Of a stretch of 64,000 nucleotides of DNA, positions 15,200 to 20,421 are shown piece by piece (position 1 is the stretch's first letter; each line of letters begins with the position of its first letter). The stretch is from Chrysemys picta bellii. Lineage: Eukaryota > Chordata > Testudines > Emydidae. Where the stretch lies: positions 65,497,587-65,561,586 of the forward strand of contig NC_088797.1 in NCBI RefSeq assembly GCF_011386835.1, in the 5' to 3' direction. The notes below the pieces were generated by a model, which had not been told where the DNA came from, made no database searches, and saw nothing but the letters and a program-made list of their open reading frames with translations. Both the position numbers and the translations under genes were made by a program.

Positions 15200-15620
15200 G
15201 ACCATAAGAAGGTATATTAGAGCTCTAAGTATTATTAATAGCCTTGTCCCACCACCAATCAGGTAAAAGCTCTAATTACAAACACCAAGTTAAATAATTA
15301 CTGGCTATTTACTAAGAATTGATGAAAATGAATAAATATTTTTGGAAATCACTTAGTGTTTAAATTACTCACACTAAATTAATACAAATATTTCTAAGTA
15401 AAGAGAATAGTCATAGAAAAGTACATTATTCAGTAAAAGAATTCATTAGTATTTAATTACAAGAAATGGCATCAATTATTAAACATTACTACAACTTGCT
15501 TGGAAAATTGATACATTCTTCTCACCACTATTAATAACTTCAATTACCAATGTGATGTACCAGTAACTCTTTTTCTTTGGGTGCTAATTTTCATATAGTG
15601 TCTATAATACAGTATTATGT
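15200..15620. other. AT-rich stretch with TAATTA-type motifs, possible conserved non-coding DNA
   Basis: This block is markedly AT-rich and contains repeated homeodomain-like cores (TAATTA, TTAATA, ATTACT) with no repeat family or ORF. Such blocks are often enhancers near developmental genes, but composition alone cannot prove that. The stretch continues without features to about 16040. Confidence 0.2.
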
Positions 15621-16042
15621 TTGCTAGCCTTAAACATTTTTGCTTTGAGTTTCACTCTAGTGCAGATTACCTTAATTTTCCACAGTTTATTTCCTAGTTG
15701 AAATACACGCTCTGGGTGTCTCTTAATCAGTTAAGATCAGGCTCAGGATGGCTGGTGTGTTTCTTGTAGCACAATATACACTCCTCCAGAGTTTTCTAAA
15801 TCATAACCAAAGAATGAAGACTCATTTAGGCCTGCATTCCCCCTGCCACTCTTTTTCATGTTCTTTCATGTTGTCACTAGAACACTCTTAATAGTGGCTT
15901 GTTTGCCACTACCTCCATCTCACTAACCCTTAACAGATAAGAGATCTTGCATTCTCTGGACAATGGAAAGCTACAGCCTCAGCTGTCAAATACTTTTACA
16001 TGTAAAACAAATGCAGAATCTGAACACTGTGATGTTGTGCCT

Positions 16043-16282
16043 GGGTATGTCTACACAGGGATAAAAATCCCTTGCTGACCTCAGGCTTGCATGGCTTGGG
16101 ACCGGAGGCTGAAAAATCGCTGTATAGATGTTTGGGCTGGAACCCAAGGTCTGGGACCCTCCACTCTTGCAGGGTCCCAGAGCTCGGGCTCCAGCCAAAG
16201 CCTGAATACTTGCATAGTAATTTTTTCCCCTGACCCAGGCCAGCCTCGGCTATGTCATGGATGTTTTATCCCTGAGTAGATA
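16043..16282. mobile_element. MITE with GGGTATGTCTACAC terminus, right end incomplete
   Basis: The left end GGGTATGTCTACACAGGGAT pairs with the inverted right end, which reads TTTTATCCCTGAGTAGATA before the sequence changes abruptly. The terminal bases needed to complete the inverted repeat are absent. Internally, 'tgggaccctccactcttgca' and 'gggtcccagagctcggg' form a second palindrome. The terminus resembles the Harbinger-type ends at 8982 and 52197, but the left flank lacks a clear TWA duplication. The break coincides with the start of the R2-like element. Confidence 0.65.
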
Positions 16283-17780
16283 ATGCTTGACGTCACCAGC
16301 CAAGCCGCCGAGTGGATGGGCCTCTGCTTCAACCCCAAAAAGTGCGCCTCCCTCCACATTGATGGTGGCGTAGGAACTGGTCCGGCCGTCATGGTTCCTG
16401 ATCCAGGGGGAGCCCATGGCCTCCCTCGAAGAGGGAGAGGTATACCAACACCTCGGCACATCCACAGGACTCCGCGTCCGACAGACCCCCGAAGACACCA
16501 TCGCAGAGATCCTGCGAGACGTGGCCCAAATTGACTCCTCCGTGCTCGCCCCCTGGCAAAAGATCAACGCCCTCAATACTTTCCTGATCCCCGCATCTCC
16601 TTTGTCCTCAGGGGATCGGCCATAGCCAAGGTGCCCCTGAACAAGGCCGACAGTACCATCAGGCAGTGGTGAGGAAATGGCTCTACCTTCCCCAGAGGGC
16701 CAGCACCAACATCATCTACATTTCCCACAGGCAGGGTGGTGCCAACGTACCTCGGATGGGTGACCTGTGCAACGTGGCAGTGATGACCCATGCTTTCCGC
16801 CTCCTGACGTGCCCCAACCCGATGGTGAGGAGCATCGCGCAGGAAGCCGTACGGGACGTGGTCAGGAAACGCATCGCCAGGGCCCCCTCCGAGCAGGACA
16901 TCGCCACTTACCTCAGCGGCTCCCTGGAGGCTGAGTTTGGGAGAGAGGGGGGAGACCTGTCCTCTCTCTGGTCCCACACCCGCAACGCCTTGAGACGCCT
17001 AGAAAAGAGGATCAGCTGCTGCTGGAAGTGGTGCGAGGAGCGCCGGGAGCTACTGGTGCCACGCATAAAGACCCCAGACCACACCATCATCACCCCGACC
17101 GCCAGAACAAGCAAGTGGGACGCCAGCAACCACTTCCTCCCTGGGGGCAGCTTCACCAGGTTCGCTGACTGGCGGTTCGTCCACAGGGCCCGACTCAACT
17201 GCGTTCCCCTCAACGGAGCCATCCGCCACGGCAACCAGGACAAGCGCTGCAGGAAGTTCAGCTACTCAAACGAGACCCTGCCCCATGTCCTGTGTGGATG
17301 CAAACAGCACTCCGGAGCCTGGCGGCATCACCACAATGCCATCCAGAACTGGCTGGTGAAAGCCATCCCGCCATCCCTGTGGAAGATCACCCTCGACTTG
17401 GCCATCCCTGGGACAGACAGCAGACTGCGACCCGACATCGTCGTGACAGACGCAGAAAAGAAGAAGTACTCATGGTAGACGTCACAGTGCCATTTGAAAA
17501 CAGGTCACCAGCCTTCCACGAGGCCCGAGCACAGAAGGTGTTGAAGTACACCCCACTGGCCGAGACCCTGAGAACCCAGGGCTATGAGGTCCAGATACAC
17601 ACCCTGATCATGTGAGCGCTGGGCTCGTGGAACCCCCACAACGAGCCAGTTCTGAGAGCGTGCAGATTCGGTCGACGCTACGCCTGGCTCATGAGACAGC
17701 TCATGGTGTCCGATACCATCAGGTAGTCCAGAGACATTTATACAGAACACATCACAGGACACCATCAATACTACATTTAA
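16283..17780 (+). pseudogene. R2-like ORF: RT thumb, zinc finger and restriction-like endonuclease (broken)
   Basis: The reading starts just after where the RT catalytic box would lie (AEWMGLCFNPKKCASLHI at 16310-16363) and shifts frame four times: near 16380-16415, 16590, 16655 and 17460. The longest open part (16666-17478) contains the R2-like block with CRK.......ETLPHVLCGC, where the second zinc ligand of the usual CxxC is phenylalanine, then H and N of 'HHHNAI'. The endonuclease motif LRPDIVV (about 17426-17446) precedes the last frameshift and VDVTVPFEN (about 17472-17498) follows it. The C-terminal tail continues through a TGA (17613-17615) and a TAG (17724-17726) to SRDIYTEHITGHHQY and a TAA at 17778-17780, a tail I associate with R2-clade proteins. 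It cannot make a functional protein. Confidence 0.75.
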
Positions 17781-18122
17781 TAATTGAGACCACCAACTCA
17801 ATTTCCCTGAGAAAGAAATAACCCACTTTCTTCCCTGACGAACCAAGGGATGCACCCCACCCATGTACTTATTCACTACACCGATACTGACTTGGACTCT
17901 TTATACATTCCATGGGTGGCGTACTTATCCACTGACACTTTAAAAACTCTTGCATCCCAATCTGGGTCTATGCTGGTTATGCGATATGTATGTATCTCTT
18001 CATCCTTGCAACCGATACCTGTAATCCCTCATAACTCAAGCCTGACCCCAGATGTACAGTACTTTCCCTCTTAACTTGTGTATATTTAATTTTAAACATT
18101 AACTTTAATAAAAATGTTATAC
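16283..18122 (+). mobile_element. R2-like non-LTR retrotransposon, 5'-truncated copy
   Basis: Coding remnants cover the end of the RT, a zinc finger and a restriction-like endonuclease, followed by a 3' UTR of roughly 340 bp ending in an A-rich stretch near 18105-18122 (taataaaaatgtt). Everything upstream of the RT thumb, including the catalytic RT box, is missing, which fits incomplete target-primed reverse transcription. R2 elements normally insert at one site in 28S rDNA; no 28S sequence is recognisable on either side, and the 5' side is a MITE. The GC content is much higher than that of the flanks. The exact 3' boundary and target-site duplication could not be fixed. Confidence 0.75.
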
Positions 18123-19080
18123 CTTCTGTGACCAGATAGCATTTCAGAGGATTTTACCTAGTGGATCCTGGCTTGCTGTACGAACAGGCACAACCACAAT
18201 CAATCATTGACCGGTACACTGGAAATATACCACGCTCTCAAACAGTTGTAAAAACCTTTGGTGCTTCTCTCCCCATTTCCCAAACTGTGTATATGGCCTG
18301 CCACAAATATATGCAGCAACCCATAAAGGGCTTCAAGCCTGATCTAACCACACAGTTGCAGGTTTCACTGAAGGTGTGACTTTTTTTTTATAAGCCAATT
18401 TAGTTAAGCTGGTACAAACCTCTGTGTGAGACACTAAGGCATTCCAGAACCAGTAAGAACTTGTTTAAACATCTTTTTGCCATATTCATCCCTGAATTCC
18501 TCACTGACTTAATGGGGTAACATCAGGGAGGAATCTGACACCTTATTTCTGGTGAGGGCCATGACCAGTTACAATGGAAACCTATTAAATTAATCAGCTT
18601 TATTTTTTCTTGCATTCTGAGTATAGGGAAGTAAATGCATTGCTTGTGGGAAAGTGTATGCATGCAGCTGGACAATCCTTAGAGACCACTCTAGTTAGCC
18701 ACAGTACAGGAGTGGCAGGAGAGCAACAATGCAAGCTTTCCTGGTCTGGCCTCACCCCTGGCCTCTCATCTCTTGGCATGAGAAGGTAGCTCAGGCTCCA
18801 TCCATACTAGTTCTCTCCCACACTCCTCTGTACAGGCAGCTAGCTAGTTGCAGCAGGGTTTTTTGCATAAGCAATCCTGGACACTGGGTAGAGACTACCA
18901 AATCATGTCCTAGAAGTTAGAGAACAGCCATCGAATGTCAATGACTTTTGCTAATTAACAAATTCTGAATTTCAACTGATGCTATAATAATCTTTTTTGC
19001 ACCAAAATATTATTCTATTAATTGGGATTTGTATAAAAGCTCCAGGAATTTACTGTAATGAGTTGTGGATTGGTGAACAA
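18123..19080. other. Non-coding stretch, no gene recognised
   Basis: AT-rich unique sequence between the R2-like and CR1 elements. No ORF with a recognisable domain; the region up to about 18400 may include degraded repeat sequence. Confidence 0.45.
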
Positions 19081-19338: not shown

Positions 19339-20421
19339 ATGACAAATATAGAGGCAGCAGTGGTAGTGACCCAAGCAGTGGAAGACACAATGAAGATGAC
19401 TGGATGTGGAAACTGCGGTATGTACATGATCCTGGAGGGGGTACCTGAAAAGAGTTTCGTCTGCATGAAGTGCCACCTGATAGAGCTGATGGAAGAAAAG
19501 ATCCGAGACTGGAGATGCAGGTGGAAACTCTGGTTGAGTTTAGAAGGGGGTTCGAGCAGATGATGGAGCAAAGACATGAGGAGGCTAAAGGGAAAAGCTC
19601 AGACTTGCAGATGGAAGCAGGACCAAAGAACTCTTTGCTGGGTGAGGAAAGTGGACAGTGGAAGCATGTGATTAAGAGAACCAGGCAGAAGAAAAGACGG
19701 GCTAGTGAAGGAGAAATAGAGTTCAGGAACAGGTTTGCGGAGTCGGAAAATGAAGAAGGGGCACAGCAGGTGGTCACTGAAGGTGGGAGGGCAAGGAAGA
19801 AGAGAAGAGCAGCTAGTTCTATAGGAAGAGGGGAAAAGTCAATGGAGATAACACCAAATATGAGCGCCAGGAGGATATGGGATGGGTTGCAGAGGATTGC
19901 AAGGGTGAATAGGAATCGAGAGGACTTGCAGCCAGAGAGAACAGGGGATAGACTGGAGAATCACACCATCACCAGGAAAAGGCAGGTCTACATGATTGGG
20001 GACTCCTTACTGAGGAGAATAGGAGCCTGTAACCAGAGCTGATCCAGAGAACAGAAGGGTGTGCTGTCTGCCGGGTGCTAAGATATGAGATCTGGACTTG
20101 AGGTTGAAGAGGATCCTAACAGGAGCGGGAAAGAATCCACTGATTGTCCTTCATGTGGGAACAAATGATACGGCTAGACTCTCGCTGGAACATATCAAGG
20201 GAGACTATACCAGGCTGGGGAAGACGCTTAAGGAAATCAAGGCTCAGGTGATCTTCAGTGGGATTCTGCCTGTTCCTAGAGAAGGGCAACAAAGGTGTGA
20301 CAAGATTATGACGATCAACAGATGGCTTAGGCAGTGGTGCTATAAGGAGGGCTTTGGGATGGATGGCCACTGGGAGGCATTCATGGACAGAGGACTGTTC
20401 TCTCGGGATGGACTTCACTGA
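19339..20421 (+). pseudogene. CR1 ORF1 (zinc-binding plus SGNH/GDSL esterase-like), frameshifted
   Basis: From an ATG at 19339 the N-terminal part shows C-x2-C-x15-C-x2-C (residues 23-45 of that frame), followed by a charged, helical, coiled-coil-like stretch that shifts frame near 19505. The second frame (to 20042) ends with QVYMIGDSLLRR, the GDS serine block of SGNH hydrolases. After a stop (20040-20042) and a further shift, the third frame carries VLHVGTNDTARL (the GxND block) and ends with RDGLH, the D-x-x-H block. All three catalytic blocks can therefore be seen. Esterase domains in ORF1 are known from CR1/L2-clade LINEs and may help the RNP meet membranes. At least two frameshifts and internal stops make this copy dead. 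Confidence 0.75.

Follow-up and report, generated by a model that had tools for sequence, protein, structure and literature searches.

Utopia, a lineage of non-LTR retrotransposons that carry a restriction-like endonuclease (RLE) and target U2 snRNA genes, was published in 2015 (PMC4640811). According to sections of that report, its hosts include Chrysemys picta, Chelonia mydas, Pelodiscus sinensis, Anolis carolinensis and Alligator, and its 3' junction lies at U2 nucleotide 39. The same sections describe weak targeting in reptiles, with short U2-like sequences at the junctions and copies lying outside U2 genes; reptile copies within U2 have a 20-bp target-site duplication, and duplications are rare outside U2 (PMC4640811). 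Excerpts from two further sources distinguish Utopia from R2 by the absence of a Myb domain (PMC13188248) and place Utopia-1B_CPB and Utopia-1_CMy in the NeSL clade (PMC7650587). Non-specific R2 families and R2 elements with 28S-like 3'UTRs have also been described, fish included, in part of PMC5035012.

The window analysed here is a 64,000-nucleotide (64-kb) stretch of the Chrysemys picta bellii genome. Between positions 16283 and 18119 it holds a dead, 5'-truncated copy of Utopia, the RLE non-LTR element whose preferred site is U2 snRNA nucleotide 38/39; we make this assignment with high confidence. A coding remnant (16283-17777) that comprises the reverse transcriptase (RT) tail, thumb, zinc knuckle and RLE is followed by a 3'UTR that runs to 18119, and the remnant matched a Chrysemys protein far above chance (E 2.3e-131). 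The first-pass annotation of this DNA, which read the locus as an R2-clade remnant spanning 16283 to 18122, was right about the coding content and about the start, but placed the end too far downstream, since the element stops at 18119 and the bases from 18120 onward belong to a split MITE. The features of the locus are as follows.

16043..16282, no strand assigned: MITE, with its left end GGGTATGTCTACAC at 16043 and its right inverted repeat broken off after 16282
16283..16369, + strand: Utopia coding piece 1, RT directly past the catalytic YxDD motif, 5' truncation point (tblastn; P0012 from residue 44)
16374..16592, + strand: Utopia coding piece 2, RT end and thumb (tblastn and alignment)
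16595..16666, + strand: Utopia coding piece 3, frameshifted (tblastn and alignment)
16669..17463, + strand: Utopia coding piece 4, thumb, zinc knuckle and start of the RLE, with 31 codons absent relative to P0002
17248..17301, + strand: zinc knuckle, CRKC...H...C in relatives and CRKF here (alignment to P0002)
17466..17777, + strand: Utopia coding piece 5, RLE and C-terminal end, with two in-frame stops
17778..18119, + strand: 3'UTR and element 3' end; other copies finish at query position 1837, which is window 18119
18120..18124, no strand assigned: remainder of the MITE right inverted repeat (TACCT versus TACCC)

The copy starts 14 residues past the YxDD motif (residue 44 of P0012), and 10 of 11 longer copies lose their match at position 1500 of L001, which corresponds to window 16282. 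When 118 relatives were compared by tblastn with the whole 64-kb window, 245 matches were obtained at E <= 1e-3; none started upstream of 16280, and all finished by 17777 bar two that reached 17807 and 17852. The N-terminus is missing from the window copy, so that the N-terminal fingers and the Myb region fall outside the surviving part. The joined coding pieces (residues 45-499) are 75% identical to the Chelonia mydas protein P0002. Measured against that protein, the copy carries four frameshifts and two in-frame stops, has lost 31 codons through a deletion and shows a further gap of 2 codons, and the change of the second cysteine of the zinc knuckle to phenylalanine has cost it one metal ligand. 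Pfam gave no useful match on the reading frames of the window. A difference in GC content from the flanks, also claimed at first pass, was borne out locally: values of 0.51-0.66 across 16400-17799 compare with 0.27-0.41 across 15200-15999 and 0.39-0.49 across 17800-18999, and single 200-base windows farther upstream also reach 0.53-0.54.

Proteins from turtles and alligator, most of them annotated as 'T26G10.4-like', are the closest relatives, the top seven having E values of 2.3e-131 to 6.4e-105; beyond reptiles, the named hosts that appear first are an ant, a nematode and a scorpion. The longer relatives possess an RT, a zinc knuckle and an RLE, some also showing N-terminal finger-like motifs; Pfam found no Myb domain in eight of them, in a scan run without R2 as positive control. 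The window's family shares with the reptile Utopia elements (Utopia-1_CPB/-1B_CPB, Utopia-1_CMy and Utopia-1_AMi) a turtle host, the domain plan of RLE elements, 3' junctions at U2 nucleotide 39 and loose targeting away from U2; Utopia-1_CPB is, we presume, the name of a Chrysemys picta Utopia. Unlike these references, the window copy is 5'-truncated, broken and situated inside a MITE repeat. The name Utopia, which draws on target, hosts and tree and not on the Repbase Utopia sequences themselves, is most likely correct. The copy is an ordinary example of an already known kind, belonging to a published family.

The 2.37-Gb assembly, in which the window is part of contig C7, was searched with the element; scores were obtained for 40 of 1183 candidate places, making the copy counts lower bounds. 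Thirty-seven of the 39 other places, each matching to at least query position 1822 or carrying such a part, were fetched with flanks. A separate search with RF00004 returned 46 scored U2 matches from 101599 candidates, several of them on contig C15 near 10.8-11.2 Mb. There, locus L083 carries Utopia sequence with a DNA identity of 69-73% to the window copy, and its 3'UTR leads without a break into a perfect (100%) match to U2 nucleotides 38-187. Five 743-base tandem units occupy C15:11199404-11202376 (L078-L080, L083 and L084), each consisting of a Utopia 3' end and then U2 nucleotides 38-187. Positions 3-1148 of L083 form 382 stop-free codons in the stretch examined, and judged from that frame the lineage has perhaps been active recently.

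The 3'UTR of the dispersed copies has a further connection with this array. In 38 of 38 copies (window included), the last 420 bases contain a match to the spacer that lies 43-230 bases downstream of the U2 genes of the C15 array; identity over the best stretches is 74-87%, and L067 and L080 reach 88.5% against the window. The block, whose identity to the spacer is 75-88% over stretches, occupies 17862-18095 in the window and 1733-1920 in L066, and was likewise located in L067, L069 and L080. Five of the eight intact U2 loci that were read contain it (L066-L069 and L071, with an interruption in L067), whereas in the other three (L070, L072 and L073) the match is restricted to the first 42 spacer bases. 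In the array lineage, represented by L083, the inner 3'UTR differs by BLAST; the last 30 bases look alike by eye. One possible but doubtful account of this block is that the dispersed turtle Utopia exchanged its inner 3'UTR for spacer from directly downstream of U2 genes and loosened its targeting at around the same time. Such a capture would parallel the fish R2 elements with 28S-like 3'UTRs and, if true, would tie the acquisition of target-locus sequence by a 3'UTR to loss of target specificity in a second RLE group. The opposite direction, in which the spacer block is an old truncated piece of Utopia, is somewhat likelier, because divergence sets in sharply at about +42 and the last 23 bases of the element are absent from the spacer.

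In order to score the junctions, 28 of the 38 left flanks were used (10 were dropped, having fewer than six references in agreement or wrong chaining) together with 34 of the 38 right flanks (four were dropped for more than three mismatches in the 3' tail); both sets contain the window copy. The U2 score at right junctions exceeded all 20000 permutations, and that at left junctions was modestly raised (permutation value 0.00225). U2-like sequence follows many of the fetched 3' ends: that of L040 is followed by 26 bases of U2 starting from nucleotide 39, those of L038, L021, L024 and L037 by shorter or imperfect U2 stretches, and others have none. On the left side, TAGTA (U2 34-38) ends 4 of 28 flanks, as against 8 of 14980 background positions.

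The right-hand signal recurred in a larger set of copies. Of 58 listed exact 3' ends, six were already in the set and the other 52 were fetched additionally, L100 and L122 being kept despite unusual sequence ahead of the tail. At least 8 of the 12 positions of U2 39-50 were matched in 15 of the 52 further ends, compared with 1 of 364 control positions, which overlap one another and were taken from the same flanks. With the first two bases of the flank set aside, the next nine positions carried the respective U2 bases of TCTGTTCTT in 42, 35, 41, 30, 36, 26, 22, 31 and 25 of 52 ends, and 18 bases farther on the same bases occurred in 14, 8, 21, 10, 11, 19, 14, 17 and 11 of 52. The 3' tail with at most two mismatches was found at 473 places, versus 59 for the reversed pattern. 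A pattern spanning the U2 junction was also counted (58 places, 0 for its reverse), but was rejected as a measure of the window's family; many of these 58 places read ..ATTTAAATCTG as the array lineage does, and others are further variants. The family thus prefers U2-like sites, and the first-pass suggestion of a relative with another site preference proved sound, the relative being Utopia. Of the comparison of genome copies and flanks proposed with it, the outcome was U2-like 3' flanks, with 28S not being the 3' flank of the family.

U2-like flanks of single copies could in principle derive from a U2 tail borne on the element RNA instead of from the choice of genomic site. This explanation is not favoured, as U2 matches also occur upstream of the cut and crocodilian empty sites are described in the relevant section of PMC4640811. 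We favour choice of U2-like genomic sites. What is added to the published picture is modest: a chromosome-scale view of relaxed U2 targeting that takes in several hundred 3' ends and shows U2-like bases flanking the cut on either side, alongside a second lineage residing in the U2 array of this genome.

The window copy itself is not adjacent to U2, and the score of its site is at background (5 of 10 on the left, 6 of 12 on the right), with no significant likeness to U2. Its 5' neighbour had been called a MITE at first pass, correctly so. In a genome search with this repeat, in which 40 of 888 candidate places were scored, it proved to be dispersed, and 11 of 20 fetched loci had paired inverted repeats of the same kind, ending in GGGTATGTCTACAC...GTGTAGACATACCC or near variants. 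The element splits the window's right repeat into TTTTATCCCTGAGTAGATA on its upstream side and TACCT on its downstream side, and once these halves are put back together 21 of 24 bases match. The MITE is therefore the older of the two, and Utopia entered its right inverted repeat. No duplication or deletion is evident at the junctions of the window copy. The reverse order, a MITE inserted into Utopia, was rejected, given that the 118 proteins have no match upstream of 16280 and that the MITE repeat is the interrupted sequence.

The inverted repeat might conceivably mimic the U2 site, making MITE ends a recurrent landing place for turtle Utopia. GTGTAG in the MITE resembles U2 31-36, and it precedes the cut by three bases in the repeat of other MITE copies, as compared with two in U2. 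This likeness was, however, chosen after the fact, and the site of the window scores at background; a MITE end was found in 1 of 90 right flanks, namely the window's own, and GTGTAGAC with at most one mismatch in 0 of 28 left flanks, a set that includes the window, where it has two changes. We consider such mimicry improbable, and MITE ends as a recurrent target were rejected for want of a second case in the 90 right and 28 left flanks.

What is published on target-primed reverse transcription by RLE elements suggests a course for the insertion of the window copy into the MITE. The Utopia protein would have nicked a site inside the MITE inverted repeat, and the element RNA would have been copied from its 3' end by priming at the nick, with synthesis halting after about 1.84 kb. 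The product would then have been joined without an obvious target-site duplication. The copy has since decayed, as four frameshifts, two stops, the 31-codon deletion and the loss of the zinc ligand show.

The relation to R2 was addressed with a maximum-likelihood tree of the RT-end/RLE region (41 rows, 486 columns, LG+F+G4, 1000 ultrafast bootstraps). Of the 321 proteins found, 36 were selected with a view to a spread of hosts and to Ulp1 domains; the remaining rows were the window copy, L083 and three R2 proteins of known structure, and R4, HERO, CRE and named NeSL references were not part of the tree. The window grouped with Chelonia, Pelodiscus and Carettochelys (support 100), and adjoining this group was a second turtle lineage, to which the copy from this genome's U2 array belongs (99). 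Farther out came Alligator with one more protein (97), followed by ants, a bee and other proteins (100). R2Pm, R2Tg and R2Bm were set apart from the remaining 38 rows (support 92), and Ulp1-bearing NeSL-like elements fell on the window's side, away from R2. As read from these sequences, the tree argues against R2; alone, it gives no ranking of other clades.

An R2-clade element, inserted off target by R2 machinery or carried out of the rDNA with flanking material, was the first-pass reading, and homology to R2 is indeed real: all five PDB matches to the window ORF at E up to 10 are R2 structures (E 8.3e-7 to 0.081), the order of RT, zinc knuckle and RLE is common to both, and R2 is reported from turtles in a portion of PMC5035012. 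The match of the window ORF is weak, and that of the longer relative P0002 to R2Pm is stronger (E 4e-24), from which we conclude that R2 is a true yet more distant relative. The motifs that had been taken as a mark of R2 are not specific to it, and in the window copy the zinc knuckle is broken. R2 differs in its 28S target, and, as far as three R2 references show, the phylogeny places the window outside its clade. The 3' junctions of the family match U2 and not 28S, which speaks against off-target R2 machinery, as does the rejoining of the flanks as a plain MITE inverted repeat. That empty site also speaks against moved rDNA, and no Rfam family, rRNA included, reached its gathering score in the window, in agreement with the earlier remark that no 28S sequence was visible. 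An R2-clade origin is therefore very unlikely. R2NS and BLAG, non-site-specific R2 or R2-like elements, are also RLE elements found outside rDNA, but by their descriptions in parts of PMC5035012 and PMC7650587 they belong in or near the R2 clade.

Assignment to Utopia removes an apparent case of R2 escape from rDNA. A position outside rDNA is normal for the window's family, and off-target reptile Utopia copies had already been described; therefore there is no change of R2 specificity to explain. That the copy is another RLE lineage near NeSL (R5/LIN, Togen or HERO) is scarcely credible, since 3' junctions are U2-like across the family and a sister lineage sits in the U2 array, even with Ulp1-bearing elements on the window's side of the tree and Repbase references outside the comparison.

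Three minor observations were made along the way. A protein from a 'Desulfobulbaceae bacterium' MAG (P0228) is 47% identical to P0222, an Ulp1-bearing RLE retrotransposon, and is probably animal DNA binned with a bacterium. Several turtle gene models (P0005, P0036, P0109, P0114 and others; e.g. cutC, septin-2 and teneurin-2) have stretches that match the element, as if pieces of Utopia had been fused into annotated turtle genes. Downstream in the window, an open frame of 197 codons (19449-20042, + strand), without a Pfam match, resembles the first ORF of CR1 LINEs.
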